DNA from: Sipunculus nudus | Lineage: Eukaryota; Annelida; Sipuncula; Golfingiida; Sipunculidae | DNA: 64,000 nucleotides | NCBI GenBank assembly: GCA_026874595.1 | Contig: CM049307.1 | Coordinates: 75,616,643-75,680,642 of the forward strand | Direction of reading: 5' to 3' | Shown: in pieces, positions 12,298 to 36,200 of the stretch | Layout: the number at the start of each line of letters is the position of its first letter | How positions within the stretch are numbered: the first letter of the stretch is position 1 | Made by a program: the position numbers and the translations under genes | The notes under the pieces: model-generated | What the model was told of the DNA's origin: nothing | The model's database searches: none | Seen by the model: only the letters and a program-made list of their open reading frames with translations

Positions 12298-15200
12298 ATT
12301 TCAACATGCAACAATAAACAGAATTAATTAACTATACATCATTATACTCTCTCAAAAATTTTGATCAGACATTTTCTCCTGTAATTCCCGGTACTAACCA
12401 GATTTCCCCAGTTATTCCCAATTAATCCCGCGTTTTCCCCACTGTCGGGGAAAAACTAGTTTTTCCCGGGAAAAATAACAACCCTGAAATTTACTCTAAT
12501 TTTGAACCACTTTTATTGTCTATTTAATTATTTGGTTTTCGTTAACAGAGGCTGCTCCCACAAACCTGGAGGAGAAAGAAGTCACAGCAACAACAGAGCC
12601 TGTCACAGATGGACAAACAGGTACCAGTTTACACGCATAGACAGATGGACCTAAGATCCTGTGTTAAAACTACTAGGGTTAATAATATTGAAAAAAAACA
12701 CACCCTTGAGTTATTTGTACATGGATTTACACCTAAATTTAATCACTTGTTGAAAGATGTATACATTTTCAGCCTTTACATTATCTCATAGAAAGCCAAA
12801 AAACTGTTCTGCAGATATCTTGTTGAAACAATCATAATCTAAAGTGAACAATAAACCTCTGCTTTGAATAGGGTTAATAATGTATTCAGATGTCATCGCT
12901 ATATGTTGCAATGCTGGATCTTATGTTGAATACATGTCATGAAGTTGCAGTGTTGCATGTCATATGTTGTCATAAATGTCATGTATGCAGACTTGATTGT
13001 CTGAACTTGTAATTAAGATAAGGTAAGATAGTTAATTGCTTAATACATGTAATAAACTATTACACACAATAGTAAATAACTTACTTTTTTAAAATAATAC
13101 ACTGATCAGGATTGTAAGTCATATTGTGTGTACTAGTAATCCAAGTGGCAGGTTTTATATTGTGCTTGGAGTAACTAAAGTGGACTCTCTTTGACTCTAC
13201 ATGAATTTACTTGTTATTTACAGCAGATGCACAACCCCCTGGAGATTCAGAAGGAGACAAAGAGACCATCAGTTTTAAAGTTATTTATAAAAAACAGAAG
13301 TATGATGTCAACTTCACATTGGATCATACCATATCCAAGTTGAAGGCTCATTTAGAAACTCTAACAGGTAGGTTAAATCAGTTTACTGGCAGGCTTAATC
13401 TTCTTTTTGTGTCCAATTTAATGTTTTATCGGAAAACATAAAAAAAGATATCCAATTTTTTATCCATGGAAAATTGAAAAAGAATATTGGTTTATTTGTA
13501 TAAAATTAATGTATGATTGATTATAATACTAATTATTTGAAAATTAGATTAAGTTTGAAGTGAATGCTTAGAACTTGCCACAGGCTGGATGGAAATAATT
13601 TCTTTGATAAAAAAATCTGTTAGCCTTTCTTTTTTTTCTTGAGATGTATAGAAAACAAAGTGCATAAAAAATTTATATAAGGCCAAAATAAAAAAAAGGT
13701 ATGGTTCTCAGGCACTTTTTTTCAGAAATCGGTGCGGGCGGGCGCTTTTTTTATTTTAAATTTTTTGGTATGGTTCGATAAAAATGTCAAATGATAAAGG
13801 AAAAACATGAAAATAACAGTTTTATTTTGCGGAATAAGTAAAAGCACTACAAAACAAAGGAAATTGTATGGTTTTATCTTCTTGAAAGAAATGTCGGAGC
13901 GGCAGCAGCTCAAAATTGGAAAGTTTTTATTGAAAATCAAAATAAAAATTTTTGATGCGGGGGTTTAAAATTGATGCGGGCGGTGCCTGAGAACCATACC
14001 TTTAATTTTTTTTGGCCTAATTATACATAAATACTTAAAATAGTCTGATAGTTAAATCTGCTATTGACTTTTTTAGTGAACCTGTGAGCTTATGCGATGG
14101 TGTGGCGTCGTCCGTTGTCTGTACGTTAACCCATACTATCTTGAAAATGGCAAGAATTAGCATCACAAAATTTTATGCATAAAATTAGTCATTGAAAAAA
14201 CTATATCAGATTTTGCTTATTTTTTGGCTAACTGCATTTTCTTGGATTTTATAGGGAAAAAGCTAAAAAAGCTTAAAAAATCTTCATCGACGAATCTGTT
14301 AAGCCAAATTGTCCAATATTTTACAGAAATGATTCCTGGAACAATCTCTCTCAAGTTTGTTCGAATGGTTTAAGTTCGGTGAATTTTGGCCAAGTTACAG
14401 GAAGCTGAACTTAGTCATCTGTCCAAAAAAGCATACTAAAATTACAATCTCAGAAATGGCTTGAGCTATCATCACCTAATTTTATGCCAATGTTGGTCAC
14501 ATGAGTCATATCTGAAATTGAGGTATTGGTGGCGCCACCTGCATCAGCCTTTTTGTACGGGGGTCATCAGTGCCCGTATCATACTGACAGCTACAAAAAT
14601 CTTCTTCTCAAAAACCACTGGGCCAAATTCTTAAATCTCACACATTAATTATCCTTAGATTTAGATAATTCAAGTTTGTACAAATGGTCTCAGTTCAGTG
14701 AATTTTGGCTGAGTTATGGGTTAGCTGAATTTAGTCATATGCCATAACAGCCCATGTTAGCTAAGTGGCTACAAAAATCTTCTTCTAAAAAAAACCACTG
14801 GGCTAAATTCCTAAATCTCACACATTAATTATCCTTAGATGTAGATAATTCAAGTTTGTTCAAATGGTCTCAGTTCAGTGACTTTTGGCTGAGTTAAGGG
14901 AAGCTGAATTTAGTCATATGCCATAACAGCCCATGTTAGCTAAGTGGCTACAAAAATCTTCTTCTCAAAAACCACTGGGTCAAATTCCTAAATCTCACAC
15001 ATTAATTATCCTTAGATGTAGATAATTCAAGTTTGTTCAAATGGTTTTAGTTCAGTGATTTTTGGCTGAGTTATGGGAAGCTGAACTTTGCCATTTTGCT
15101 GTAATTTCCCATATGAGTTATAAACCTACAAAACGTTTTTCGACTGATGATACAGAGGCCAGTTTGTTTAATATTTTGCAAGAATAATTCCCTGAATCAT

Positions 15201-18200
15201 TCATATAATAATTGTCTTTTATGGTTCCAAAAATGAATTTGGCTGAATTATAAAGATTGAATTGAATCATTTTACCATATATGTTAGCTGTGTGAAGCAG
15301 ATACATCTAGCCTAGCACCAGTTTATCAGCATCCATTACATCATGCCTCTAGACATTTAGATTACAGGTAATCTATGGAAAATATTGACAAGAATGTTTT
15401 TTAAAAGCTTTTAAAAAATGTAGATTTATGATTTTACATATCATCTGTACACTAACTCATAATTTCTCAGGAATAGCAGGAGCTACCATCCCCAAATTTT
15501 ATGCAATTATCTGTCACATATCAAATGTTGATGGATTCAGCTAATATTTGCTATCTGCATTTACTTAGATCTTACAAGGAAAAAAACTAAAAAAAAACTT
15601 TTAAAAGTCTTCTTCTTGTAAACAGTCCAGCCAAATTGTTCAATGTTTTACAGAAATGATCCCAGAGGCGAGCCCTCTCAAGTTTGTTCAAATGGTTTGT
15701 GTTGGATAAATTTTAGCAGAGTTACATAACAGGCCAAGATTGTGTATGTTTCTTGAATAGGTTGAGAAACTGCCAACAGTTTCAGATTTGGCAACAGATC
15801 AAGAGTTCATTCAGTGCAGCCAAATATGGGTCAACAGTTCAATCAGTGCAGCCAAACACAAGGCATGTGATCACCTCATGGGCAGCATGTGATCATCTCA
15901 TGGGTAGCATGTGATCACCTCATGAGTATCATGTGATCACCTCATGGGTGTCATGCCCCTCAGGGCAGCATATGGAGCCAATCTGTGAGCTTATCCAATT
16001 GTGTGGCTACTATTTCTGATTTGGCAATAGGCAAAAGGTCAGCCTGGATTTATTTATAGCTTTGGCAGACTGCCAACTGTGTCAGATTATGCAACAGGTC
16101 AAGAGTTCACTCAGTGCAGCCAGGTACAGGTCAAAAGTTCACTCAGTCTGGCCAGGTGCAGGTCAAGAGTTCACTCAGTGCAGTAGCCTGAGCCAGTAAT
16201 TTGTCACAGTACACTAGGGGCAACAGCCTTTCTAACCTAAGCCTGGTCAGCCCTGTGCAACAGACTCAAGGTAAGTTTGATGTATTGGCCTGATATTCTG
16301 ACCTGTTTATGTGTCTTTAATGGCTTTCTCGTTCACAAGACAGGTGTTGCCATCTACAATGACTTTTGCAAAGTGTATGTGCCTGCTTAATTCTACAGAA
16401 GAATTTGATATTTCAGCCTGAAATTCGGCATATTTGTACATGTCAAATAGCTTTGTCGTATACAAGACTGGTGGTGCCACCTGCAATAATTTTTGTGTTG
16501 TGTGCACCCATGCCAGAATTTCAGCAGTGATGTTTGTGTATTGTTTCTTGTTCAAAATGTCTAGTACTTGCATTGTTCATATATATGAAAAGTAGTGGTT
16601 CAGCATTGAAGCGTTATACCTGGTGCATATCCATATGCACAGGTTCGCATTAGGCCTGTAGGCCTTGTTTATATATTTGAGGATTTCATAATCCATGGAT
16701 CTTTACATGTGTTGTAGCATTTATAAAAATGATAACACTTCACCATAGCCAAAAAATATAATGATTGGGATTCATTTTTGCACAGGTGTTCCCGCTTCCA
16801 TGCAAAAATTGATGTATAAAGGTAAGTGAGCCTTAATATTTTACAGGAACCAACTTTTTAGCCAAACCAGATATGCAGGCTACCTATCAGAATATAGCAG
16901 AACTACCAGATTTAGTTCTATGGTTGTCCCATCTTTGCTGGATGTTTTTTTCTTAACAAATTGGATAATTAAAAAAAATCCACCTTAACAAATATTTCAT
17001 GAATGATTACAGGTGTAAATTTTAATAGGATTAGCACAGCCAACTTTAAATATACATGTATATATTTTCATTCATTTTGATTACCCTGTAGCTGAATTTG
17101 ACATACATGTATATTGATTGCCTAATAATTTCAGGTACAACTAAAGATGATTCCACTTTACGAGACCTTAAGGTCACTAAAGGTGCCAAAATGATGATGG
17201 TAGGTTCTACAGTGACGGACGTGATGTCAGTAACGCCACCAGATCCCAAAGCCATAAAGGAGGCAGAGCAGTCCAGTCCAGCGTCAAAGGAACCTCTTTG
17301 TAAACAAAAGGCAATTTTGTTTATTTATTTACTCTTCTTTGTCCTCAGATGGAGCAGAAACATGAATGTTGAGATTAGAAAACATGAGTAAAGAAGTATT
17401 GGTGAAAAAGGACTTGCAGATTCTGCAAACAGTTTGTCCAATATTCAATGTACAATCTTCTAATTTAACATTCAGGCATTGTTTTGTCTCCTGTTTGGTT
17501 AATTTACTCTTGACTTCCAAGGAGTAAATTTGCCATTAATTACAGGGGATGAATTTTTATGAGTTGATTTACTCTTATTTTTCATATAAGCAAGTACCGG
17601 TAGTCAAGCACTGACATAATTGTATCTGCCAAAACAAAGGATACTATGTTTTTGACCGGGTTCTGCCGCCGCTGCCTCCGCATTCGTTTTCGGAGAACTC
17701 TGAGACTACTGGACGGATTTTACCGAAACTTACACCAATTATGGGGTCACATGTGAACCGGTGCCTAAGCAATTTGGGTTGACCTCTGACCTTTCCCCTT
17801 TGCCCAGCGTCCATTTGTGCTGTTTCCACACATAAACCCACATATCTCGGGAACCGTTTGACCGATCAGGAAAAAAAATTGCACAAATGTAGCCCTTGGA
17901 TAGCTTTATAATATACACAAAAATGGTGGTGCCACCTGCAACCATTTTTGCACAGCGTCCATCTGTTTGTTTGACTTGGGTTAAAATCACTCATATCTCT
18001 GCAGTGGTTTGACTAGATCACCTGAAATTCGGCATGCTTATTCATCTTGGATAGCTTTCTTGATTTTATGACAGGTGGCGCCACCTACATTCACATTCAC
18101 GCTGCATACATCCATGCTTATATCTCCCGACTGGTTTGACTTATCTTCCTGAAAATTAGCATATGTATAGATCTCACTTAGCTTTTTACCATACGCAAAA

Positions 18201-21200
18201 CTCGTGGCGCCACCTGCAACCATTTTTGCACAGCTCCTGTCTGTTTGTCTGTCATGGGATAAAATCACTCATATCTCGGCAGTGGATTCACATATCTGTC
18301 TCAAATTTTGCAGGTTCATACATCCTGAACAGCTTTCTTGATTTTATGACAGGTGGCGCCACCTACATTCTAGTTTACAATGAAGACTTCCATGCTCAAA
18401 TATCAGGAACTGTTTGACTGATTGGGCCAAAATTTTGCATGTGTATAGATCTCACATAGCTCTTTATCATATGCAAAACTGGTGGCACCACCTGCAACCA
18501 CTTTTGCACAGCGTCTGTCTGTTTGTCTGCTGTGGGATAAAATCACTCATAACTCGGCAATGGTTTGACATATCTGCCTAAAATTTTGCAGGTTTATACA
18601 TTCGTTACAGCTTTCTTGATTTTATGATAAGTGGCGCCACCTACATACACACTTCGGCTGCAGACATCCATGCTTATATGCAACACACCTCACTCTATTT
18701 CCCTTACCACTCAATCCTTGCCTCACTTCCCCCGTTCCACTATGATTTTGGCGGATACACGTAGTGGCTTGTTGACTACCCGTATTCTAGTTTATACAAT
18801 ATTTGGGTGTGAAGAAGTATCAGTCAGTACCTTTCAGAGCCTTATAAAGGTTGCAGAATATTCCTGTTTTTAGTGCAGAAAATTGCCAGAAACCTACCAC
18901 AATGCAAAAGCAATTATACCCTCATTTAATAATTGCCGGTTAAGGTAGGAAGAATACCAGTATCTCAGAATGTCTTGCTGGCTATGATCATGGTGGCTAT
19001 ACTTAACTAGGTAAACATATATTGTATTACAGCCACATAAGACAGTACTTGACAAGCATGGGAAACCAGATGATGCCATGGTAGGCATTAAAGGCACAAA
19101 ACAGGCTCTACCCCAGGTCCCAATCTCAGGCATGTACAACAAGTCAGGCAGCAAAGTACGGCTGACATTCAAGCTCGAGTCAGATCAACTGTGGATCGGC
19201 ACAAAAGGTAAGAGGGAGGGACCATATCAGCCAACAGGTCTAGGGAGATCTAGGGAACAGAAGAATGTCCATTCATTTTTGTGTCTGATCTGCTGTGGCT
19301 CACATAATTTACACTGAGGTTGTCTGATCTGCTGTGATAAAAAGGGCTCACATAATTTACACTGAGGTTGTCTGATCTGCTGTGATAAAAAGGGCTCACA
19401 TAATTTACACTGAGGTTGTCTGATCTGCTGTGATAAAAAGGGCTCACATAATTTACACTGAGGTTGTCTGATCTGCTGTGATAAAAAGGGCTCACATAAT
19501 TTACACTGAGGTTGTCTGATCTGCTGTGATAAAAAGGGCTCACATAATTAACACTGAGGTTGTCTGATCTGCTGTGATAAAAAGGGCTCACATAATTTAC
19601 ACTGGGGTTGTCTGATCTGCTGTGATAAAAAGGGCTCACATAATTTACACTGAGGTTGGGGAATGACTCCCTACCTAGGTATGGAAAAAATTCAAAATTT
19701 TAGCTTAAAATAAATCCAAAATGAAATAACTTAAAATTTAATACAGTTATTAATAATGCAAAAAGATGCGTATGATTAAAATACAGTGAAACCTCGTTGT
19801 GTTGAACTCGGTTAAGTCTAATTCCCGCATGTGTCAAAGTCGAATGTGGGGTCCCTGCAAAAAACAGTTAAAACCTTACTAATTTAACTCCACTTGTGTC
19901 GAAGTCGGATGTGTCGAAAACCCTGATGTGTGGAGGTGTTTTATTACGTAAACATAATTGTGAGCTGTTTCTGTATTAATGAGAATTTTCTCTGTTAAAG
20001 TTTATACGCCAGAGTAAGCCAACCGAAAATTTTCCCTTATTGGGCCTATCATCGCCCATCCCGCCTCGTTCCTGTGTATCTAGGTCACACTTCCGCTTCC
20101 TGTTATCACATTTTTCTTCTGGCGTCAGCCATGATGGACGTGTGATCTCGCTCTGCGCTATTCGTCCACTGTTGGGTTTGTACTGTAGAGTTTGCCAACT
20201 GAACTGTAAGTTGTGTTTCTTTCCCTTCCCGCCATGGAGACCCCCACTTATTGTGTTTCTTGTGGTTCTTTAATCCCGGTTTGGGATTCCCACCCCACTT
20301 GTTTCCATTGCCGTGCGAACAATGACTCCTGCCATGGTCCGGCGGATCCCTGTTTCTACTGTCAAACATGGTCTTCAGAAAAGTGGGCATTGTTTAACGA
20401 TTGGTCACATTCCCCATTAGTTTGGGGTTCCCCTTCCACAATTCCTTTGTCTGGTCCCGTGGTTGCCTCCCGGGGGGGGGAGGGGGGGAGCCTACCCTGG
20501 GTGACCGCAACACGGCCATGTTGCGTTCCCCGTCTGTTACCACCGGTACTGTTTCCTCCCCGGTAGTTTCGACAGTCAAGTCCTTACTTTCCCATACCCG
20601 TAAACGGAAGTCTTCCCCAGTTCCCGGGGCTTCCCGTGCCGACGGCCCGTCAGCTTATTCCATCTTACATAAATTATCTCGATTTTGCTCGTCACTTATG
20701 TCGGATCTAGACGATCCGTCTAGACCCGAGTCTGTCCGCCCGACGCCCTCACCTGTTCCCCCGGTGCTTTCTCCCTGGGCCGTTATCTTCACCCCTGGCT
20801 CCTCGCCGGCTTCCTTCCTTATCCCCTGGGCCGGCTGAGGCCATCCCGCTGGTTCGCCCGGGCCTTCCTGGTGTGCAGGTAAGTGCGTCCGTCCCTCCGG
20901 CATCCATTTCCTTGCAGCAGGCCTCACCTCCGGTTACTCCTTCTGCTCCGGTGGTCCGTTCGGCCGTTCCTGACTGGCCGGCCGGTTCATTCTTTCAGCT
21001 CCCGTCTGCTGTGCTGACTGCGGCTCCGGTTCCTGTGACTTCCCAGGTGGTCCCTGCTGCTGACCGGTCCTCGGCTTCCTTTTTTCAGCCTCAGGTCGTT
21101 CCGGCTTCGCGGGTCTCTCTGGATCCCCCTTCCCGGGGTTCTCCAGCGTCCCCTTCTTCTCATTCTGCCGATCCCGCCCTGGCACAAGATCAGTGGTCGG

Positions 21201-24200
21201 AGATTGGTCCGGTTCTTATTTGAATCCTGCCGCCCTTCAATCGCCTTCCTCCGCCCCCGCCGTGTGTATGGTGTATGTGTATGTGTATGTGTACCGATCA
21301 CACGGTGGATCTCTTACGTGAGCACCACGCTGTGGTCTCGATCTACTAATACTGGGGCCTCGCTTCCGCCGGGTTCTGATAAACCCTGGTCCCCCGGTAC
21401 CCTGTGGAATTCCAGTGGGTACTGCCCTACCTGCTTTGATCGTCTGATACCCTTTCCTGATCACCCGGATATTCCGTCTGCTCTGATGCGTCTTGAGTCT
21501 GGCCTTGAACAGCCGTTCGCGGACCGTAAATCCTTGTTTCCTTCGTCTGTTCAATTTTCCGATTGTCACCTGTTGGATCTGGAGGGGCTCGGCCGGCAGG
21601 CGACTGGTATGGTCAACGACTTGCAGGCCGTTACTAGCCTGCTCGCCATCTCCCCTGATTGCCCACACTTAATGACATCTGGCTGGCTTCTGCCCATACC
21701 TGCGCTGAGTTGCAACAGGTTGTCTGGCGACTTGTTGAAAATTGTATCTTGTTATGCCGCACGGCTTGCCTTCAGTCCTTAAAGCACTTGAAGCCGGAAC
21801 TTACCAAAGCAGAGTTGACTTAGCTTTATTCTCAACCTTTCACCGGCTCCCTTCTGTTTGGCGGCCATTTACGGCCTCTTTTTGACCGCGCCTTGGAGTG
21901 CTCGGATCGTCAGGCCCTCCTCCGCTCGGCCTCTCTTGCGCCTCGCCCTTCCTCCCGCATCCCGTGACCTCGCCCTTCAGTTGCGGCTCCCGTTCCGGCG
22001 CGTCGCGCTCCGGCTCAGTCTTCTTGTCCTTCCAGCCGTAACAGCTGTTCCCAGCCTTTTCATGGTCGTTCCTCCAAACGTGGTTCGACCAAGAAATGAC
22101 TCATTTGTTCCGGTCGGCGCTCGTCTCAGCGCCCATTTTCCCGCATGGGCGGGTATCACCACACATCGGTTAGTTCTCAGCACCATAAAGTTCGGGTTCC
22201 GTCTTACGTTTTTGCACGCACCTCCCGTCACCCTGCTCCTCTGTTCTACACTCCGCCTCCGTCTGATCCCACCAAGCACCTCGCTTTGGAAGAGGCGATT
22301 CACTCTATGATCGACAAAAGGGCGATTTTCGAGGTTTCCCCGTCCACCATGGGGTTTTACTCCCGCCTTTTTCTTGTTCCCAAGCCGCACTGGCGCTGGC
22401 ACCCCATCATAGACCTGAAACGCCTCAATTCGTTCATCCGACCGCCCCCCTTTCGGATGTTCTATATCCATGCTGTTCTCCGCATTATTCGTCGGATGGA
22501 TTGGCCGTTCAAAATAGACCTTACAGATGCTTATTTTCACGTTCCAATCCATCCGTCGTCTCAACCGTTTCTTCGCTTCGCATATCAGAACCGCATTTTT
22601 CAATTCCGGGTCCTCCCGTTCGGGATCAATGTGGCCCCCTGGATTTTTACCATGCTTGTTCACACGGTCACGAGTTATCTCCGTTCCCAGGGCATTTCTG
22701 TGCTCCCTTATCTGGACGATTTGCTTGTCCATGCGGTTGATCCCTCCTTGTTACTGTCTCATCGCTCCCAGGTTCTCACATTACTTCAGAACCTTGGCTT
22801 TCTCGTCAATGCGGAGAAATCCCTTCTCACTCCCACCCAGTCCCTGCAATTTCTGGGTGTCACGCTCGATTTTGCGTCCGGCACGGCGTCTCTCCCGCGC
22901 GATTTTGCTCTCAACCTCCGCCGGCAGATTCGTTCCTTTCTCACGCTGCGCCGTGTCGACTCTCAACTGGGTCGCGTCTTTAATTCCGTTCGGCCGACTG
23001 TACCTACGTCCAATTCAGTCTCTCCTGCCCCGTCACGGCCTTCTCCGTTTAACATCAGTTCGTCCTCCAGTCCTCCCGTTTCGGCTCACGTGGAGGTCTC
23101 TTCGTCTCTGGCTGGACCTTCCCTATCTCCCCCGGTGCTCCTTCCGCTCCTGGTTGTTCGGAGTGTTTTGCTCGCCTGGGGCGGCCGGAATTCGATCTGT
23201 TTGATTTTCCGTCCCTCCCCCTTCTCGACCCTACCGCGACGCTTCTACGTCACCCTCACGACCATCTCCCCGACACCCCGCCGTCAATGTGGTCTCACCT
23301 GTTTCTCTTTGCGTTTCCGGCGCTTCATCTCATCTGCCGTGTCCTTCTCCGCTTGTTCCCCCGCGGACCAGACGGCTCTCCTCATCCTACCGTTTCAACC
23401 TGCGGCTCCCTGGTTTCCTCTGTGGCGCTCGCTTCTCTCTCGGCCACCGCTCCTTCTCCCGCTACGGATCACTCTCCCGTCGTTCCCACGAGCGCGTCGC
23501 CCATTTCAGTCATGCCCTCTATGCGCATGCGTGCTCTCATCGGACACCTCAAGGATCAGGGCATTTCAAGTCCGGCTGCTCTCCTTGCCTCGGCTCCCTG
23601 TTGCCGTTCTTCGGACCGCAACTATGACTCCCGGTGGCGTCTCTTCACCGAGTGGGCCTCCTCCCGCGGAATCTCCCCCTTAGCTCCGTCACTTGCGGAG
23701 GTTTTGGACTTTTTGTGTTCTTACTGCGGGATAAACATTTATCCTATCCGTCTCTGCGTGGCTATCGTGCCGCCCTGCTGTCCGTGCTCCGTCCGCTGGG
23801 TCACGATCGTGTCCTTCATCATCCGTTGGTGTCGGATTTTCTCAAGGGGGTTCATGCCCGCGCGTCTCGTCCTCGGTATGTTGCACCTTCCTGGCGCCTG
23901 GACGTCGTCCTACGTCACCTACGGGAACCCCCTTATGAGCCCCTGCGTTCAGCCCATCTTCCCCATTTGTCTCGGAAAACGGTTTTTCTCCTCGCTCTTG
24001 CCTCTGCCAGTCGCCGCTCTGAGCTTCATGCCCTTGTGGCTGATTCGAAATTCACGCAAACCGGGCCGACGGTTCGTCAACCACCCTCCATTTTCCTCTG
24101 GACTTTTATAGAAAGAACCAAAATTTCAATGATCCTCCGTCAGCTTAGCACGTTCCGGCCCTCCCTAACGGTCAGTACCGTTATGGGGCTACCAATTGCC

Positions 24201-27200
24201 CGGTTTGTGCGTTACGTTATTATCTTAAAGCTACTCAAGATAGTAGGGGGGGGGGGGGGCGCAAGAAGTTGTTTATTTCTACAAAAGTCACCACTTCCAA
24301 TAAGGAGATTAGCCCTATCACCATTAGTGCGTGGCTCAAAGCTACTATTGTCGCCGCCTATGAATCTGCTTCTCCATCAACCTTAGAGCAACTTCACATC
24401 AAGGCTCATGGCATTCGAGCTCTTTCTACTTCCTTGTGCCATTTCTCTGGGATCTCACTGAATCAACTGGTCAAGAAGGGCTACTGGAAGTCCCCGTCTA
24501 CATTCACCCGCTTTTATCTCAAAGATGTTCAGCTCCAGGCTTCGGGCCTTAACTCCCTGGGCCCTGTGATAGCAGCGGGTGAGGTCCTCCAGTTTTCCAG
24601 GCCATCATCCTCCTCTCCGTCTGTTCCACCGACGACGTCGTCTTCTGCGCCATCCCAGCACTGAGGTTCTCCTCTTTCCATCGTTACAGGTAGGTGTCCC
24701 CTCCCCAAGGTCTGTCTGTTCTATTCTCATTAATACAGAAACAGCTCACAATTATGTTTACGTAATAAAACCCCCCATTCCCTCCCTGTGAATGGTGGTT
24801 TTGTTAGTAAACTGTTGTGAGCTTTTCTGTATTACAAACATCGCTCCCTCCCAGTCCACTTCCTTCCGCCTTCGAAAAATGTGATTACAGGGAGCGGAAG
24901 TGTGACCTAGATACATGGGAACGAGGCGGGATGGGTGATAATAGGCCCAATAAGGGAAAATTTTCGGTTGGCTTACTCTGGCGTAAATACTTTAACAGAG
25001 AAAATTCTCATTAATACAGAAAAGCTCACAACAGTTTACTAACAAAATCACCATTCACAGGGAGGGAATGGGGGGGATTTGTTGGTCCCAAGCTGATATT
25101 TCTATCGCTTAACTCAAAGTCATGTTTGGATAACAGCTGGTGCACGGCCCGTCAATCATGATTGGGCCGTGATGATCAGTCATAATTAATAAATACCGAC
25201 AAGGCTCTCACTCATCAAGCGCCATAGGTCTGTCGCTCGACATGAGGTCATGCCGTTGTAATGTTTTGACAACAGTTGTGCACGGTCCAACAACCATACC
25301 TACTGCCAAAATGACCAGTTGCATAATTAATAGCAGCAATGATCTTACTCAACAAGCGCGATGGCTTACATACCTATTGCGTTGTTTAACTATTTGGCCA
25401 ATTATTCACTCATGATCATGCCTTTCTTCTCTTGCCAACAAAGCATTAACGAGAAGTTATTGATATATAAACCAAACATAATCCAATCCTTCCCTTTGAT
25501 GTGTCTAGGATAAACATACAGGACTCTATATAAAGGGAGGAAGATGGGATTTATATCAGACTGACTCTTATTTACCACAGAGTACGTTATACTGTATAAC
25601 TGCTACACTTTTTTATTGTTTGTGTCCTGTTTGCTTTGGCGTCGCAGCCTGCTAAGCGTAAGCTTGATGTAAAGACCATATAAACCTCATTCAATTTCTC
25701 TCTCTCTCTTTCTCTCTCTCTCCACACACACTATTTTTCTGTTTCAGTTTGAAATTCTATGACGCTAAAAGATATTGTCTCAACAAAATAAAATAAGGAA
25801 AAGAATTAATAATAAGAAATCTAAAGGATTCACACAAACATTTGTGAGAACTATATAACATAGGCCCTATACATGTGCAGTATTTATCGATAAAAATCAA
25901 GGGTGAAGAAGGTTGAATATAATGAACACTGGTTGTCTTGTACTCCGGTTGTGTCGAAGAAAATAACCAGTCCCTTCGACTTCGACACACCGAGGTTTCA
26001 CTGTACTTTAAATGACTATTAACGGTAGTAAGAACTCCCCCTTTTAGTGACAGTGGTTATAATTATGAATTATATATGAATTATATAACATTATATTATG
26101 AGTTATATGAAAATCACTTTGCAGCCTTCTGGAGTTGTATGTGCAGTGCTGGAAATGAACCAGGACAATGATATATTCTATTTATGAGATCTGAATCTGA
26201 CCACTTGTATGTATCTGTTAAACTCTCTTCTTCAGAAAGAACAGACAAGATTCCAATGGGCTCCATCAAAGCTGTGGTCAATGAACCAATAGAAGGAAAA
26301 GAAGAATATCATATAGTGGTGAGTGTATCTGTCTAAGAATATCATATAGTGGTGAGTGTATCTGTCTAAGATTATCATATAGTGGTGAGTGTATCTGTCT
26401 AGGAATAACAGATAGTGGTGAGTGTGTCTGTCTAAGAATATCATATAGTGGTGAGTGTATCTCTCTAAGAATATCATATAGTGGTGAATGTATCTGTCTA
26501 GGAATAACAGATAGTGGTGAGTGTGTCTGTCTAAGAATATCATATAGTGGTGAGTGTATCTGTCTTAGATTATCATATAGTGGTGAGTGTATCTGTCTAG
26601 GAATAACAGATAGTGGTGAGTGTGTCTGTCTAAGAATATCATATAGTGGTGAGTGTATCTGTCTAAGAATATCATATAGTGGTGAGTGTATCTGTCTAAG
26701 ATTATCATATAGTGGTGAGTGTATCTGTCTAGGAATAACAGATAGTGGTGAGTGTGTCTGTCTAAGAATATCATATAGTGGTGAGTGTATCTGTCTAAGA
26801 TTATCATATAGTGGTGAGTGTATCTGTCTAGGAATAACAGATAGTGGTGAGTGTATCTGTCTAAGATTATCATATAGTGGTGAGTGTGTCTGTCTAAGAA
26901 TATCATATAGTGGTGAGTGTATCTGTCTAAGATTATCATATAGTGGTGAGTGTATCTGTCTAGGAATAACAGATAGTCGTGAGTGTATCTGTCTAAGAAT
27001 ATCATATAGTGGTGAGTGTATCTGTCTAAGATTATCATATAGTGGTGAATGTATCTGTCTAGGAATAACAGATAGTGGTGAGTGTGTCTGTCTAAGAATA
27101 TCAGATAGTGGTGAGTGTATCTGACTAAGAATATCATAAAGTGGTGAGTGTGTTTGTCTAAGAATATCATAAAGTGGTGACTGTTTCTGTCTAACATTAT

Positions 27201-29481
27201 CATATAGTGGTGAATGTATCTGTCTAGGAATAACAGATAGTGGTGAGTGTGTCTGTCTATGAATAGCAGATAGTTGTGAGTGTATCTGACTAAGAATATC
27301 ATAAAGTGGTGAGTGTGTCTGTCTAAGAATATCATAAAGTGGTGACTGTTTCTGTCTAAGATTATCATATAGTGGTGAATGTATCTGTCTAGGAATAACA
27401 GATAGTGGTGAGTGTGTCTGTCTAAGAATATCATATAGTGGTGAGTGTATCTGTCTAAGATTATCATATAGTGGTGACTGTATCTGTCTAGGAATAACAG
27501 ATAGTGGTGAGTGTGTCTGTCTATGAATATCATATAGTGGTGAGTGTATCTGTCTAAGATTATCATATAGTGGTGAATGTATCTGTCTAGGAATAACAGA
27601 TAGTGGTGAGTGTGTCTGTCTAAGAATATCATATAGTGGTGAGTGTATCTGTCTAAGATTATCATATAGTGGTGAATGTATCTGTCTAGGAATAACAGAT
27701 AGTGGTGAGTGTGTCTGTCTAAGAATATCATATAGTGGTGAGTGTGTCTGTATAAGAACATCATATAGTGATGAGTGTGTCTGTATAAGAATATCAGATA
27801 GTGGTGAGTGTATCTGACTAAGAATATCATAAAGTGGTAAGTGTGTCTGTCTAAGAATATCATAAAGTGGTGAGTGTGTCTGTCTAAGAATATCAGATAG
27901 TGGTGAGTGTGTCTGTCTAAGAATATCAGATAGTGGTGAGTGTGTCTGTCAAAGAATATCAGATAGTGGTGACTGTTTCTGTCTAAGAATATCAGATAGT
28001 GGTGAGTGTGTCTGTCTAAAAATATCAGATAGTGGTGAGTGTGTCTGTCTAAGAATATCAGATAGTGGTGAGTGTGTCTGTCTAAGAATATCAGATAGTG
28101 GTGAGTGTGTCTGTCTAAGAATATATAGTGGTAAGTGTGTCTGTCTAAGAATATCATATAGTGGTGAGTGTATCTGACTAAGAATATCATATAGTGGTGA
28201 GTGTATCTGACTAAGAATATCATACAGTGGTGAGTGTGTCAGTCTAAGAATATCAGATAGTGGTAAATGTGTCTGTATAAGAATATCATTAAGTGGTGAG
28301 TGCGTCTGACTAAAAAAATCATATAGTGGTGAGTGTGTCTGTCTAAGAATATCAGATAGTTGTGAGTGTATCTGACTAAGAATATCATATAGTGGTGAGT
28401 GTCTGTCTAAGAATATGAGATAATTGTGAGTGTGTCTGTCTAAGAATATCATATAGTGGTGAGTGTATCTGTCTAAGAATATCATACAGTGGTGATGTGT
28501 CTGTCTAAGAATATCATAAAGTGGTGGGTGTGTCTGTCTAAGAATATCAGATAGTGGTGAGTGTGTCAGACTAAGAATATTATAGATTGGTGAGTGTGTC
28601 TGTCTAAGAATATTATAAAGGTGTGAGTGTGTCTGTCTAAGAATATCATACAGTGGTGATGTGTCTGTCTAAGAATATCATAAAGTGGTGTGTCTGTCTA
28701 AGAATATCACACAGTGGTGAGTGTGTCTGACTAAGAATATCATATAGTGGCGAGTGTATCTGACTAAGAATATCCCTGTGGTTGGTGTTCAAGTCATCTG
28801 GAACTGGAGTCCAAGTCAAAGAAAATCTCCTTATTTGAAGAAATTTAAATGGAAATCAAGATTATCATAAGTATTTTATGTTAGTTTGCACATACTTTTT
28901 ACTTGAATGTTTGATTACATTAAGCTCCTCATGCAGAGCTAAAGCTTGGTATACAGTCTTTTCCTTGTAATATTCTGTTAAAAGTTTACACCTGAATGTA
29001 AAATGCCATGTGACAGTACTTCCTTTCTACCGGACGTGACATGGACTCGGCATGATTTGGGGAGTCCTTACCTCCAAAGTCTGAGTACAAGTCTGAGTCA
29101 AGGACCCTTGTGTCCAAGTCCCTAATAAAGTGTACTCAAGTCTGGACTTGGCCTTGGGTCCTCCATCATTGCCTAGTGATATTTTGTATGTTACAGGGTA
29201 TCCAGTCTTATGACTGTGATACATTAAACCCATTTGATGTTTTGTATGTTACAGGTTAACCAGTCTTAAGACTGTGATACATTAAACCCATTTGATGTTT
29301 TCTATGTTACAGGGTATCCAGTCTTATGACTGTGATACATTAAACCCATTTGATGTTTTGTATGTTACAGGGTATCCAGTTAGGTCCTACAGAAGCATCA
29401 CGTTATTGGGTGTATTGGGTTCCAGCACAGTATGTAGAAGCAATCAAGGACGCAATCCTGGGCAAGTGGCAGTTTTTTTGA
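516..29481 (+). CDS. UBFD1: UBFD1 homologue (ubiquitin-like domain and UBFD1 domain protein), whole gene span, 8 coding exons
   Basis: UBFD1 is a conserved eukaryotic protein that binds polyubiquitin and has been linked to NF-kB signalling in mammals (family knowledge). Coding parts are 516-534, 12549-12620, 13224-13367, 16786-16821, 17135-17310, 19033-19207, 26236-26318 and 29371-29481: 816 nt, 271 residues plus stop, close to but a little shorter than the ~300-residue vertebrate protein. Residues ~1-45 are an acidic, low-complexity leader. Residues ~46-115 form the ubiquitin-like fold, with MQKLMYKG and the KGAKMMMVGST strand. Residues ~182-271 are the UBFD1 C-terminal domain, with GMYNKSG, KVRLTFKL, DQLWIGTK and a C-terminal YWVYWVPAQYVEAIKDAILG. 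Every junction keeps phase. Oddities: intron 5 begins with GC, exon 3 has a NAGNAG acceptor, and intron 7 is built from copies of its own splice sites. The match is read by eye from family motifs; the identity is very likely. Confidence 0.93.
1139..2208. repeat. Interspersed repeat with GCTCAGCTGA ends (family A, copy 1)
   Basis: Begins TTTTTAGCTCAGCTGA followed by tandem 'cgt ccg' style runs. It ends near ACAGCTGAGC and 'ctgggtccctagtta', giving short inverted ends (GCTCAGCTGA at 1145-1154, ACAGCTGAGC at 2176-2185). Both flanks are (ATTACT) runs, so it seems to have inserted in a microsatellite. Other copies start at 4411 and 51362. No transposase coding sequence seen. Confidence 0.6.
2231..2440 (+). 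repeat. 27-bp minisatellite of ATTACT units
   Basis: About seven copies of a 27-bp unit made of a TGTGTATCT spacer and repeated ATTACT. 27 is a multiple of three, which keeps all frames open and creates false ORFs rich in Leu or Tyr. Confidence 0.9.
2444..3950. other. UBFD1 intron 1, no recognised feature
   Basis: AT-rich intron sequence. No coding similarity, inverted repeat or clear element boundary was seen on either strand. Confidence 0.4.
6950..7082 (+). repeat. (TC)n microsatellite
   Basis: Imperfect then nearly perfect CT dinucleotide run inside the family A element. Confidence 0.95.
7597..7618 (+). repeat. C homopolymer (22 nt)
   Basis: An uninterrupted run of C. The length is prone to assembly or polymerase error. 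Confidence 0.95.
9295..9420 (+). repeat. ATTACT microsatellite blocks
   Basis: Three short (ATTACT) blocks separated by unique sequence, the same motif as at 2231-2440 and around 1100-1140. Similar blocks on both sides suggest one older repeat split by later insertions. Confidence 0.7.
9779..9802 (+). repeat. G homopolymer-rich tract
   Basis: A run of about 22 G with one A near the start. Confidence 0.95.
10074..10081. repeat. Target-site duplication, outer hAT-like element, left
   Basis: AAATTTAC, identical to 12487-12494. Confidence 0.85.
10074..10495 (+). repeat. 216-bp tandem duplication of the hAT-like left end
   Basis: CAGGGTTGTTAAGTTTTTCC occurs at 10082 and again at 10298. The two copies are almost identical through the (CA)n run that ends each. 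The duplicated block includes the AAATTTAC flank, so the duplication probably arose after insertion. Confidence 0.9.
10602..12118. mobile_element. hAT-like non-autonomous element nested in the outer hAT-like element
   Basis: Starts CAGGGTTGGGTTTTAGGC and ends GCCTAAAACTTGCCAACCCTG-type sequence. It is flanked by a perfect 8-bp duplication TACATAGT at 10594-10601 and 12119-12126. Both subterminal regions are full of short GCCTAAAAC motifs in both orientations. No transposase was recognised in the 1.5-kb body. Confidence 0.87.
12160..12296 (+). repeat. TA/TG/CA microsatellite
   Basis: Compound (TA)n, (TATG)n and (CA)n run within the outer hAT-like element. Confidence 0.95.
12487..12494. repeat. 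Target-site duplication, outer hAT-like element, right
   Basis: AAATTTAC, identical to 10074-10081; it lies 54 bases before UBFD1 exon 2. Confidence 0.85.
12549..12620 (+). CDS. UBFD1: UBFD1 coding exon 2
   Basis: Follows a TTAACAG acceptor and encodes an acidic linker with NLEEKEVTATTEPVTDGQT, ending ACAG before GTACCA. Phase 1 in and phase 1 out. It lies only 54 bases after the 8-bp duplication that ends the hAT-like insertion. Confidence 0.78.
13224..13367 (+). CDS. UBFD1: UBFD1 coding exon 3 (start of the ubiquitin-like domain)
   Basis: Encodes ADAQPPGDSEGDKE and then the first strands of the ubiquitin-like fold (ISFKVIYKKQKYDVNFTLD, then SKLKAHLETLTG). Acceptor is TTTACAG followed by CAG, a tandem NAGNAG acceptor that could add or drop one Ala. 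Donor ACAG before GTAGGT. Phase 1 on both sides. Confidence 0.92.
13678..14020. mobile_element. MITE-like inverted-repeat element in UBFD1 intron 3
   Basis: About 343 bp. The left end TAAGGCCAAAA and GGTATGGTTCTCAGGCAC (13698 on) is mirrored on the right by GTGCCTGAGAACCATACC and TTTTGGCCTAA, giving inverted repeats of ~40 bp. The flanks carry TTATA on both sides (13673-13677, 14021-14025), a possible duplication; TA alone is the alternative. No coding sequence. Superfamily not assigned. Confidence 0.75.
14070..15115 (+). repeat. Interspersed repeat with three internal ~178-bp tandem units
   Basis: Starts around TTTTTTAGTGAACCTGTGAG, then GCTTATGCGATGG and a CGTCCGTTGTC tract, a start type I associate with bivalve repeats. 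Units beginning CTACAAAAATCTTCTTCT lie near 14590, 14768 and 14945 and each end in a 'ggctgagttatggg' type sequence. Confidence 0.75.
15864..15953 (+). repeat. 22-bp minisatellite, four copies
   Basis: Four copies of a GCATGTGATCACCTCATGGG-type unit, each containing the palindrome TGATCA. Confidence 0.85.
16300..16690. repeat. Fragment related to the long-inverted-repeat element of 44-47.6 kb
   Basis: GCACAGGTTCGCATTAGGCC at about 16637 matches the inner end of both arms of that element (44745-44760 reversed, 46921 on). The preceding bases resemble its interior (TTTCAGCCTGAAATTCGGCA, 'ggtggtgccacctgc'). Probably a truncated copy. Confidence 0.55.
16786..16821 (+). CDS. UBFD1: UBFD1 coding exon 4 (36-nt micro-exon)
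   Basis: Encodes VPASMQKLMYK with split Gly codons at both ends. This is the conserved helix-to-strand segment of the ubiquitin-like domain (human has a very similar P-AMQK-MYKG stretch). Acceptor TTTTTGCACAG, donor AAAG before GTAAGT. Confidence 0.92.
17135..17310 (+). CDS. UBFD1: UBFD1 coding exon 5 (end of the ubiquitin-like domain), GC donor
   Basis: Encodes TTKDDSTLRDLKVTKGAK, then MMMVGSTVTDVMSV and a linker ending EPLCKQK. The conserved protein continues from this KQK into exon 6 (PHKTVLDKHGKP), so the exon must end at 17310. The intron then starts GCAATT instead of GT. AAG before GC fits the stronger exon-side consensus typical of GC-AG introns. Phase 0 out. Confidence 0.9.
17621..18759. 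repeat. GGCGCC-palindrome element (family P, copy 2), both ends visible
   Basis: Starts TGTATCTGCCAAAACA and ends TTTTGGCGGATACA, so it has inverted ends of ~14 bp. The body is a series of ~130-150-bp modules, each closing on the near-perfect palindrome GGTGGCGCCACC (near 18073, 18203, 18352, 18480, 18632). Phrases such as 'cacagcgtccatctgtttgtctg' and 'cactcatatctctgcagtgg' recur. No transposase; a non-autonomous DNA element is the likeliest reading. Confidence 0.7.
19033..19207 (+). CDS. UBFD1: UBFD1 coding exon 6 (start of the UBFD1 C-terminal domain)
   Basis: Encodes PHKTVLDKHGKPDDAM, a linker, then PQVPISGMYNKSGSK, VRLTFKLESDQLWIGTK plus one base. Acceptor GTATTACAG, donor AAAG before GTAAGA. 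A 48-bp minisatellite begins about 70 bases into the following intron. Confidence 0.93.
19281..19658 (+). repeat. 48-bp minisatellite, 8 copies, just after UBFD1 exon 6
   Basis: Eight units starting TGTCTGATCTGCTGTGATAA at 48-bp spacing (19321, 19369, 19417, 19465, 19513, 19561, 19609). The first at 19281 lacks about 8 bp. Near-identity of copies points to recent expansion. The minus-strand 129-codon ORF here is a by-product of the 16-codon period. Confidence 0.95.
19960..20104 (+). repeat. DIRS left inverted terminal repeat
   Basis: About 145 bp, from GAGCTGTTTCTGTATTAATG to the CTTCCGCTTCCTGT region, mirrored at 24887-25030 with a few differences. Confidence 0.88.
20234..21782 (+). pseudogene. 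DIRS Gag-like region, broken
   Basis: Opens at GCCATGG with METPTYCVSCG and a Cys/His-rich start (CVSC, CFHC, CFYC) like a zinc ribbon. A Pro/Ser-rich middle and a conserved C-terminal half (DKPWSPGTLWNSSGYC) then lie in other frames. The frame changes at the G-rich run at 20471-20489 and again near 20840 and 21210. Structural protein by position and composition only. Confidence 0.65.
22145..23600 (+). pseudogene. DIRS reverse transcriptase / RNase H region, frameshifted
   Basis: The reverse transcriptase core reads in one frame from about 22260 to 22940: RLFLVPKPHWRWHPIIDLKRLN (fingers, here one conservative stretch), KIDLTDAYFHVPIH (motif A), QFRVLPFGINVAPWIFT (motif B) and LPYLDDLLVHA (motif C, catalytic DD). 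From about 22950 the family's IPFGRLYLRPIQ segment is in the +1 frame. A WSHLFLFAFPALHLI segment, typical after RNase H, reads from 23287 in a third frame. It would copy element RNA to DNA; the frame breaks argue against activity. Confidence 0.82.
23634..24663 (+). pseudogene. DIRS tyrosine recombinase, frameshifted
   Basis: The N-terminal SAM-like part (SLRGYRAALLSVLRPLG, then HPLVSDFLKGV) leads to the catalytic block with the first Arg (ALASASRRSELHAL). After a frame break at the G run 24246-24257 the second block follows: HGIRALS (HxxR at about 24407) and FTRFYLKDV, the nucleophile Tyr at 24515-24517. These residues define a tyrosine recombinase, which inserts DIRS circles without target duplication. 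Stops at 24661-24663. Confidence 0.82.
24722..24840. repeat. DIRS internal complementary region
   Basis: The first half (ATTCTCATTAATACAGAAAC, then GTTTACGTAATAAAAC) is the reverse complement of the element's left end. The second half (GTTTTGTTAGTAAACTGTTG) is the reverse complement of the right end. In DIRS elements this region templates completion and circularisation of the cDNA. Confidence 0.85.
24887..25030 (-). repeat. DIRS right inverted terminal repeat
   Basis: Reverse complement of 19960-20104. For example, GGTGATAATAGGCCCAATAA here matches TTATTGGGCCTATCATCGCC there. Confidence 0.88.
25690..25735 (+). repeat. (TC)n microsatellite
   Basis: CT dinucleotide run in the right arm of the TIR element. 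Confidence 0.85.
26236..26318 (+). CDS. UBFD1: UBFD1 coding exon 7
   Basis: Encodes ERTDKIPMGSIKAVVNEPIE then GKEEYHIV. Acceptor CTTCTTCAG, donor ATAGTG before GTGAGTG, phase 0 out. Its last 17 nt (26302-26318) are the exon half of the 33-bp unit repeated about 75 times in the next intron. Reading through the donor gives VSVSV and then an in-frame TAA, so accurate choice of this donor matters. Confidence 0.92.
26302..28772 (+). repeat. 33-bp minisatellite made of the UBFD1 exon 7 / intron 7 donor junction, ~75 copies
   Basis: Each unit is the last 17 nt of exon 7 (AAGAATATCATATAGTG) followed by the first 16 nt of intron 7 (GTGAGTGTATCTGTCT). The first unit is the real junction itself, 26302-26334. 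Variants (TTATCATATAG, ATAACAGATAG, GTGTCTGTC) recur in order, giving a higher-order period of three to four units between about 26400 and 27700. The 3' part is more diverged, with units of 27-32 bp. Nearly every unit keeps a GTGAGT or GTGAAT donor-like core. Copy number is estimated from length. Confidence 0.95.
28773..29177. other. UBFD1 intron 7, sequence between the two arrays
   Basis: Mostly unique. It contains repeated TCCAAGTC/GGACTTGG-like words around 28790-28815 and 29040-29160. No other feature seen. Confidence 0.4.
29178..29380 (+). repeat. 58-bp tandem repeat of the UBFD1 intron 7 acceptor / exon 8 start, 4 copies
   Basis: TGTATGTTACAGGGTATCCA or close variants occur with the AG ending at 29196, 29254, 29312 and 29370, exactly 58 bp apart. 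The last is the true acceptor. Each unit holds the polypyrimidine/AG acceptor plus about ten exon-like bases and then a 'cttatgactgtgatacattaaaccc' spacer. The second copy reads GGTTAACC and so carries a stop. Confidence 0.94.
29371..29481 (+). CDS. UBFD1: UBFD1 coding exon 8 (last)
   Basis: Encodes GIQLGPTEASRYWVYWVPAQ, then YVEAIKDAILGKWQFF and TGA. This is the conserved UBFD1 C-terminus (LGPTEAS-YWVYWVP-QYV-AIKD--LGKWQ-F). Acceptor TATGTTACAG; the acceptor and first exon bases are repeated three more times upstream at a 58-bp period. Phase 0. Confidence 0.94.
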   Translation, partial: GIQLGPTEASRYWVYWVPAQYVEAIKDAILGKWQFF

Positions 29482-33017: not shown

Positions 33018-33278
33018 TTAATTCTCAAGTTCCACACCAGGTGTCTCTCCATCATCTAGTGTCGTGTCCCCCTCCTCTTTGATGCTTTCCATCAGGAGCT
33101 CGAGCTCCTCTATCGGTGTTCTCAGTCTGACCTCTTTCTCTGTCATGAGATCCATCATGGCTGACAGCTGGTCCGGGAAGTGTTTAACAGCGTCTACATA
33201 CAGAGCTTTGGCCCAAGGACAGCAGTGCAATGCACGAAATAACACACTTCTGGCCCTGTTGGGGTTTCCTTGATCAAC
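33018..33278 (-). CDS. NRDE2: NRDE2 coding exon 9 (last)
   Basis: Encodes VDQGNPNRARSVLFRALHCC, PWAKALYVDAVKHFPDQLSA, MMDLMTEKEVRLRTPIEELE and an acidic tail ending VELEN and TAA. This is the conserved NRDE2 C-terminus plus a ~20-residue acidic extension. Acceptor TATTGCAG. Confidence 0.95.
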   Translation of the reverse strand, partial: VDQGNPNRARSVLFRALHCCPWAKALYVDAVKHFPDQLSAMMDLMTEKEVRLRTPIEELELLMESIKEEGDTTLDDGETPGVELEN

Positions 33279-36200
33279 CTGCAATAACAGACACAGTGTA
33301 AGGTACACAGTCACTTACCACAATGGGTATTGTCTTCCACTTTCAGCTCATTTTGACCAAACATAAAGAGCTTTGTTCGGAAACCACCCAAGTTCACAGG
33401 CTCAATGCATCTTTTCACTTAATTTAAATTTCCTGTTTTGGTTCTGTATATTGATAAATAGGTCTAAGTGTGTCTATTTACAATAACAAGACCTCGTGGC
33501 TGAAGGTATAATACTGCACAAACATGAACACATGCAATCAAGGAAGCAAGATGTACTGGTCATGAATCACAAATAGACTTTTCACTTTTGGTCATTATAT
33601 TTATGTATGAGACTGGTGCAGGACATTTTGGTTGTTTTTTTTCTGCCACTGACCAAGCCCAGTGCAAGTTTATTTCTACAGTTTATAGACATATGGAAAT
33701 GGTTTCAGATTTAAACCTTGGCAGATACTATTATATTTCCCTGAGAGAACACACTGTAACTCATGTATACCTTATATGCCTAGTAAAAGAATGAGCACAT
33801 TAAATAGACTGAAACACTGAAAAACTTTTCATTTCTGTACCTTTCTTGTAACTTCTTTTGACTGCATGAGTACTAATTAAATTCATTGTTAATTAACTGG
33901 ATAATATTTGAACATATCTTTTTTATAAATAACTGTTTGAGTTCATCTAGTTATAAAGTATTTTTTATTTTACATGGATTTTACAAATAGTTACTATAAC
34001 TAAGGCTGCCAGCCTCTCCATGAGTGGATTTTTTCTGCAGTGCAATGGCGTAGCATTGGCATTGCTTGGCGCTGTAAATAACCCGTGTGGAAACCCATGT
34101 ACATGAAGCCTTCAAGAATAAAACACTAAAGTGATTCTAACTGCCAACACAACGCCATCACAACACAGAAAAATCGCCGCGGCACTCTCCATGGCTCTGG
34201 TGGTAGGGTCCCAAGTGTCCAGAGGTGGAGGTAACTGAAGAACCCAGAGAAAACCAATGACCTCGGACAGACCACTACCACTGGTTTTGTTGGGCCACTA
34301 CAACCCACACCGTGGATTGAACCCAGGAAACTGTACCTGGTCGAAAGGGACCAAGGCTCATAACAGGACAAGTAACAGTCATGTGGCTAGGTCGAAGCAC
34401 CCAGACTCCCAGAGGCATCAGGCAAGGTGGACAGGCTCAGGCTCCCAGGTTTTGGGGATGCCCTGAAAGGCTGAACAGGAGGGCTGGGCTGTGCCAAACT
34501 CCTGCTGTGCTGGAGATTACCAACAATAGTATCATCAGCTGAAGAGGCAAGACTATGGCATAAAAACCTTAGTCTTCATCTGAGCGGTCTAATGGTCTAA
34601 CCTGGGTCACCGGCACAGAGAGTGGAGCCTTTTACCCCTTACAATAACTGCCAAGGCCCCAACACTTGAAATTCAACACTTGCCTAGAAAAGCACTCAAT
34701 CAGGTGACTGAAAAAAAAAATATAACTTTTAAAAGACAGCTATCAATAGACAACAGAGGAAAAAGGTCATCATGACTTACATGCAGCTTTACTTTAAATA
34801 TTGAAAGAAAAACTTTTTTTATTGCTTTTCAAATTCAAAGAAATTGTCTTTTGTATGTCTGGTATTATCATACATCTGTTTGTGGATGTTTGGTGGTTCA
34901 TCAACATTTATGCCAAACCAGTACATTTACACCTAAAGGATACTCTTATTGAATAATATGTCATACTGCGCTCTCACTTTAAAAGGTCTTATTGCACTCT
35001 CTTATTGCACTCCCACCCCAGTGAGCATGGGCCATTGTGCCATCAGTGTTAAAACAAAATGTAACATTGGCTCTCAGATACTCTATACTGGGTTCATCAG
35101 TGATTTATTTCCAGCCTGGCTGCAGTCAGGGACATTGCTATGATAAAATAGCTTTAATGTCATAATAAGTGGATGGAGCGGGAACAAAATGGGGAGCTGA
35201 ATATGACCAAATATTTGATAACAGGAAGGAGCACAAAAAGCACTTTGTGGCACAATTCTTCAAGTGAAAACTGTTTGTTTTAAAATGTTCTTTGTTATAA
35301 GTCATATACACAGAACAACAGAGCTGCAAACCTCAAACTGTATGTATATTCTCCAGAGGAGTACACAGTGTGAAGCCTGGCCATGCTGACTCCCCCTCTC
35401 TAACCACGATCTCACATAATGGCTGATCCTTGTCTCTGTCCCTGGTCTGCTGCCTGAATGGTCAAAATGATATACAACTCATTAATTAACATAAACCTAT
35501 GATACATCCTGTTTGTTGAGAACATCTTAAAATTTGTAAATGCAACATGACAAAACCCAGAAAATTACAATTTTTAAGATCACATATAAAACTGAAAATC
35601 AATAACATAAAATTTTTGCTAGCAATGGTTGAAAACAGTAATTATTTAGCTATTTATTTTTTAAGGTACATTACACTTTTTATACATCTCAAAATACAGG
35701 CTCAATATCTGCATTCATTATTTCTATTGAATTATATGAATAATCAAAGTTGCAGACTTAATCTTTTTTTAAGTTATACAAAAAATGTCAATGAAAGAAC
35801 ATACATGACCTGAAAGAACTAATCTTTTTTGCTTTGATACCTACCACTGAAGCTGCTGTACTTGGTTTCACCTTGACTGTAGAAATTCTTGAGACTGGCC
35901 ATCCTGCGGAGTTCTGAATAAACTGCCAACAAGTAGACTAAGGGAGAACTATCAGGTTTTGTGTTCTTCCTGAAGTAGGCTCGAAGTCTGCCTGCTATAT
36001 TAGCTTGGCTTTCCATGTTGATGAAGGCATGCAGAAAGAATGCACTTTCTGGGTATTCCACCAACGCCTGCTGTAAAGGTACCCGTAGTAAACTTAATGA
36101 TGCTACAGCACTGTTCAGGTGGTGCTGCAGCAGCACTATATGGCATTCCGTCAAGATTTCACACAAGTCTCTCTTTGCACTAAAAGTCCAAGGCAAATTA

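Follow-up and report, generated by a model that had tools for sequence, protein, structure and literature searches.

The intron between the last two coding exons of UBFD1 carries tandem copies of its own splice junctions at both ends, about 75 of the donor junction and four of the acceptor junction, and only the outermost pair of sites makes the protein. The spliceosome's choice between identical sites that lie side by side is usually examined through artificial duplications. This intron is a natural case in a genome with further junction-array introns of differing copy number, against which exon definition, leak rates and the decay of faulty messages could be measured. With a probability of about three in four, we take it to be a mirage-type minisatellite built from splice junctions, present at each end of the intron, consisting mostly of passive, neutral duplications of the borders and spliced at its outermost sites. 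What makes it worth following is how many copies it has, that it is double-ended and, most of all, that arrays like it recur in this genome; it also offers a way to examine how border duplication may seed new introns.

Donor and acceptor arrays of the UBFD1 intron

The window, meaning the whole 64-kb stretch of DNA that was analysed, was used for modelling of the UBFD1 gene. Seven coding exons were placed on the plus strand, at 12549..12620, 13224..13367, 16786..16821, 17135..17310, 19033..19207, 26236..26318 and 29371..29481, the last one containing the stop codon; the exon with the start codon was not located by gene modelling within the window. The exon ending at 17310 has a GC donor in the model (AAG/GCAATT, 17310-17312). 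The placed exons read as a single frame of 264 residues with a ubiquitin-like domain and the C-terminal domain PF25343 (1.1e-54), and a PH-like domain was placed by Pfam at residues 147-259 of 264. Upon comparison with 11 other animal UBFD1 proteins the penultimate and last exons were found to join without a gap (YHIV/GIQLGP). The original prediction had called the penultimate exon exon 7 of UBFD1; it is a coding exon of that gene, while its number is unproven, as it is the sixth placed and the start-codon exon was not found.

The donor array occupies 26302..28774 on the plus strand and consists of 75 head-to-tail units, mostly 33 bp and in a few cases 29-32 bp long, as determined with TRF (period 33, 75.3 copies, 88% matches, score 3665) and by splitting the array unit by unit. 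The predicted start at 26302 was correct, while the predicted end at 28772 falls short of the end of the array. Each unit corresponds to the last 17 coding nucleotides of the penultimate exon followed by the first 16 nucleotides of the intron, and unit 1 is the true junction, with its exonic part at 26302-26318 and its donor GT at 26319..26320. A total of 42 distinct sequences were found among the units. GT was present at the aligned donor position in 72 of the 75, as GTGAGT in 56 and as GTAAGT in 2. The predicted copy number, unit composition and retention of GTGAGT-like donors in most later units were thereby all borne out. Pairing with U1 was at least as strong as in unit 1 (-11.1 kcal/mol) in 50 of the 75 units, unit 1 counted, as compared to 0.2% of the 3,442 GT sites scored outside the array. 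In fact, 58 of the 77 GT[AG]AGT words on the plus strand of the 64 kb lie inside these 2.5 kb. Ten further units are identical to unit 1 letter for letter, and the 33 bases alone therefore cannot mark the true donor. A minus-strand open frame of 556 codons across the array was put down to the 33-bp unit being devoid of minus-strand stops.

A second array is found in the same intron at 29177..29380 on the plus strand (TRF, 58 bp x 3.5). It contains TTACAG four times, ending at 29196, 29254, 29312 and 29370, and it is with the last of these that the conserved protein agrees. The first 10 nucleotides of the last exon lie inside this final unit and are present in each of the four copies, altered in one. 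The word ATTAAA was observed in three of the copies (29223, 29281 and 29339), and AATAAA occurs at 29124, between the two arrays.

The consequences of site choice were followed through all 292 combinations of donor and acceptor, pairing the four acceptors with each of the 73 GT donors obtained at a fixed offset (alignment gives 72). Only one combination, the outermost pair, gives the conserved C-terminus. As had been predicted, later donors lead into VSVSV and a stop: 288 of the 292 pairs end in ...HIVVSVSV-stop through the in-frame TAA at 26334..26336 on the plus strand, which is reached from any later donor, and the first donor joined to the three inner acceptors gives other protein ends. 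The VSVSV-stop product is without the last 36 residues, including the end of the PH-like domain. The prediction that the gene depends on its first donor thus holds in that the conserved protein is obtained with this donor and a truncated one with every other copy. For donor units 2, 3 and 4 the stop lies 15, 48 and 81 nt upstream of the resulting junction. Nonsense-mediated decay usually follows a 50-nt rule, and from these distances decay would begin at approximately unit 4.

Turnover within the donor array was evaluated by comparing its units. A higher order of three units was detected in units 1-43 (lag-3 distance 2.48 vs 3.17 when shuffled, P 0.006), and divergence was observed to grow with distance from the exon (rho 0.47, P 2e-5). 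The six columns of the donor core had 4.2 variants per column, while the remaining 27 columns averaged 5.9 (158 over 27). Since 43% of random six-column sets were equally conserved, the donor core within the array bears no mark of selection, which would be looked for in a regulated poison junction whose inner donors are kept by selection. A search of the 1.43-Gb genome with a 399-bp piece of the array matched the array itself and one weak place only (70% over 214 query bases), on account of which the array probably grew in place; the same query returned no second haplotype copy in the one assembly searched.

Whether birth of new units at the exon edge is general was considered and rejected; it is clear for UBFD1 and unsupported by the other junction arrays. 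The nearest-unit measure was significant in none of seven other junction arrays, two of which showed a fall. A rise in distance to the exon unit was seen in 8 of 8 junction arrays, with P below 0.05 in 2, and distance to the edge unit rose in 5 of 6 control arrays, also with P below 0.05 in 2.

Junction arrays at other genes

The weak match of the array query proved to lie in a PDE1-like gene, two exons of which have 73-bp duplications on the acceptor side (L009, 1445-1588 and 2628-2766). This locus was reached via the array query and was hence not chosen without regard to arrays. A search for WD40 exons listed 149 matches, of which 97 were read at the DNA level, giving 70 exon-centred loci; some of the matches share one exon and some of the loci overlap. 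Judged by the look of their translations, the sampled loci presumably include WDR5, striatin, CIAO1, PLRG1, POC1, WDR12, WDR3/PWP2 and PDE1.

An array at the exon edge, with the border within the edge unit of the array, was observed for 6 of the 97 matches. Three are donor arrays, of 40 bp x 34.7 (L058), 63 bp x 2.9 (L063) and 136 bp x 2.3 (L052), and three are acceptor arrays, of 61 bp x at least 24 (L014, running to the end of the locus), 73 bp x 14 (L075) and 39 bp x 15.5 (L073), the last being a weaker case with 5 exon nucleotides. Four more were found at other exons of sampled loci, namely donor arrays of 53 bp x 9.8 (L039) and 40 bp x 23.7 (L068) and acceptor arrays of 56 bp x at least 13.9 (L023, also running to the locus end) and 60 bp x 3.5 (L040), the latter weaker with about 7 exon nucleotides and a changed true acceptor. 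At least 10 of the 31 tandem arrays in the 70 loci thus have a splice junction in their edge unit. This is a lower bound, as 12 of the 25 arrays away from the matches (period at least 20, score at least 100) were inspected for coding edges, of which 4 were confirmed. Of the 13 matches that had an array no more than 40 bp away, inspection of 7 by eye led to 6 being classed as junction arrays; the remaining six arrays have units of 10-18 bp. Recurrence of junction arrays at many genes is thereby shown for this sample. Within the 64-kb window, 2 of 12 arrays (period at least 20, score at least 100) were recognised as junction arrays, both of them in UBFD1, the exons of the other genes being modelled in part.

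When arrays were shifted within their loci (30 arrays, 67 loci), 2.2 edge cases were expected against the 6 observed (P 0.018), and 4.8 covered matches were expected against none observed (P 0.0025). A Poisson estimate on edge units gave 1.4 to 1.8 expected cases for 150 to 194 junctions at a score of at least 100 (P 0.003 to 0.010). Plain coverage by the other arrays, in turn, would predict 5.4 to 7.1 cases, so that the junction excess depends on how chance is defined. Spaced GTAAGT triples numbered 8,988 genome-wide compared to 17,927 for the reversed control word, counted raw as overlapping hits, many per array, and not scaled for the frequency of the single word; arrays overall in this genome are not rich in the GTAAGT donor word. 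Preferential seeding of arrays at splice junctions is accordingly treated as a lead, not a result. A wider proposal is tentative and rather doubtful at present: in this probable annelid, minisatellites may arise preferentially at splice junctions, with donor or acceptor arrays of their own at a few per cent of exons, up to 75 units and both intron ends affected in UBFD1, so that the splicing of many genes would rest on the outermost site and array length might quietly alter output.

Relation to known junction repeats

In a protein search the closest UBFD1 was that of Paralvinella (75%), followed by molluscs, Lingula and Capitella (73%), and that of Branchiostoma was at 69%. The query was placed with Paralvinella and Helobdella in the tree at 85/89, short of the 95/80 mark for firm support and with a bootstrap that had not settled. 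The host appears from these proteins to be a lophotrochozoan and probably an annelid; a cephalochordate host was dropped in view of the search and the tree. The neighbouring NRDE2 homologue gave no finer placement.

Repeats of this kind were named mirages in amphioxus, where they are described for Adh3, troponin C, the globins BflGb6 and BflGb9 and PGBD5 (PMC3087553, PMC3902484). These run across 5' or 3' exon/intron borders, many of their units carry splice signals, PGBD5 has them at both the 5' and the 3' splice sites of one gene, and they are said to leave regular splicing undisturbed (PMC3087553, PMC3902484). The UBFD1 repeats likewise run in tandem across exon/intron borders and have splice signals in their units (GT in 72 of 75 donor units, TTACAG in 4 of 4 acceptor units). 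The copy numbers described for amphioxus are small, 6 and 3 in two globin haplotypes and three in PGBD5, unlike the 75 and 4 units in one intron of UBFD1. The mirage hosts are cephalochordates, which the present host is not, a difference in range rather than in kind.

Human counterparts are also described. The VNTR in intron 18 of ABCA7 has a 25-bp unit in 12 to about 427 copies that carries a donor, as the UBFD1 unit does, and begins at the donor GT (PMC5954066). The donor one unit further in is used there at a low level, with a one-unit retention of about 2 +/- 1% irrespective of array length, and skipping of the next exon rises with array length (PMC5954066). As described, this unit is without exon letters, whereas that of UBFD1 has 17 exon nucleotides, and the passages of PMC5954066 mention no acceptor array, which UBFD1 has. 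In UBFD1 the exon after the array, the position skipped with longer arrays in ABCA7 (PMC5954066), is the last coding exon. In human CBS a 31-bp VNTR, c.1444_1467+7, has a unit that spans exon 13 and intron 13 in 16 to 21 copies (PMC2630376, PMC1395315). It is thus mammalian, of fewer units than UBFD1 and, in these accounts, at one end only (PMC2630376, PMC1395315). Going by the notation, its unit holds 24 coding and 7 intron nucleotides and so spans the border as the UBFD1 unit does. Lievers 2001 is cited in the literature on this VNTR.

For human duplicated genes it is proposed that variable tandem repeats at borders may create novel introns (PMC2812944). Those arrays are short, with units of 30 bp x 4 on average over all repeat classes as against 75 units in UBFD1, and in 66% of the intron cases some transcript keeps the repeat in the exon (PMC2812944). 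A paper on earthworm metallothionein reports intron minisatellites and duplications of the fourth exon, and its passages contain no splice-junction array. No junction minisatellite outside lancelets and mammals surfaced among the open-licence papers listed, represented mostly by titles and the beginnings of abstracts. Judged by its sequence, the UBFD1 array is of the known mirage kind of amphioxus, with ABCA7 and CBS as human counterparts, and the range of junction minisatellites seems to be widened beyond lancelets and mammals.

Probable passive growth and its alternatives

Exons are recognised by the splicing machinery as units. A short tandem duplication spanning the exon/intron border would be tolerated when the original exon edge remains outermost in the array and the extra copies fall within the intron, and unequal exchange or slippage may then have enlarged the arrays to 75 donor and 4 acceptor units. 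Splicing would join the first donor to the last acceptor because these sites adjoin the exons that are recognised; that they are the ones used is predicted from protein conservation. The extra donors would be mostly passive and the inner sites would leak little. If a neighbouring donor were used at a low rate, the resulting message would carry the VSVSV-stop and should be removed by nonsense-mediated decay from about unit 4 onwards. The passivity of inner donors may not be assured, as longer ABCA7 arrays change splicing (PMC5954066).

The original prediction had further proposed that the array could act as a decoy, an enhancer or a regulator of UBFD1. This is unsupported, as the donor core is no better conserved than its surroundings beyond chance and like arrays are found at acceptors and in other genes, which points to a general mutational process. 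One regulatory form would be a dial, in which transcripts from inner donors are decayed and the number of units sets the level of UBFD1 protein. The VSVSV-stop ending of 288 of the 292 pairs and the 49 further units that match the U1 pairing of the true donor speak for it, as does the altered splicing of the next exon with array length in human ABCA7 (PMC5954066) and a review table that appears to give the 31-bp CBS array lower activity and higher homocysteine (PMC1395315). The dial is nevertheless improbable: the core is no better preserved than other parts of the unit, one-unit retention in ABCA7 is independent of array length (PMC5954066), and similar arrays occur at acceptors and in unrelated genes.

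A role of the array in binding U1 snRNP, either as a platform shielding the transcript from premature polyadenylation or as a decoy for U1, is very unlikely. Introns are described as guarded by U1 in this way, 72 GT donors are packed into 2.5 kb and the AATAAA at 29124 lies downstream of them in the same intron, yet four AATAAA occur in the preceding 7.0-kb intron without any cluster of donor words, as against one AATAAA in the 3.1-kb array intron, and the donor core is without conservation. Very little credence is likewise given to an assembly error, be it a real array of wrong copy number or a spurious one. One amphioxus mirage was apparently wrongly assembled in a draft genome (PMC3087553), but 42 unit types, a three-unit higher order and divergence rising from the exon are unlike a simple mis-join, the present genome is in 153 contigs, the longest seen being 110.9 Mb, and ten other loci have the same anatomy. 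Mostly passive border duplication at both ends of the intron is the reading that we retain.

Other features were noted around the arrays. A DIRS-like retroelement was recognised by eye in the intron before the donor array (20000-25000), with frames resembling a reverse transcriptase at 22100-23680 and a tyrosine recombinase at 24149-24661 and with flanks of similar sequence in opposite orientation at about 19999-20142 and 24761-24991. An array of 48 bp x 7.5 (98% matches) at 19297-19658 starts 90 bp past the exon end at 19207 and does not include the junction. Arrays at 8460-9068, 17900-18679 and 63066-64000 share a 278-bp period and are apparently of one satellite family. A homologue of NRDE2 adjoins UBFD1 on the minus strand (33021-40194), and a frame at 60343-60570 resembles the start of a short-chain dehydrogenase.
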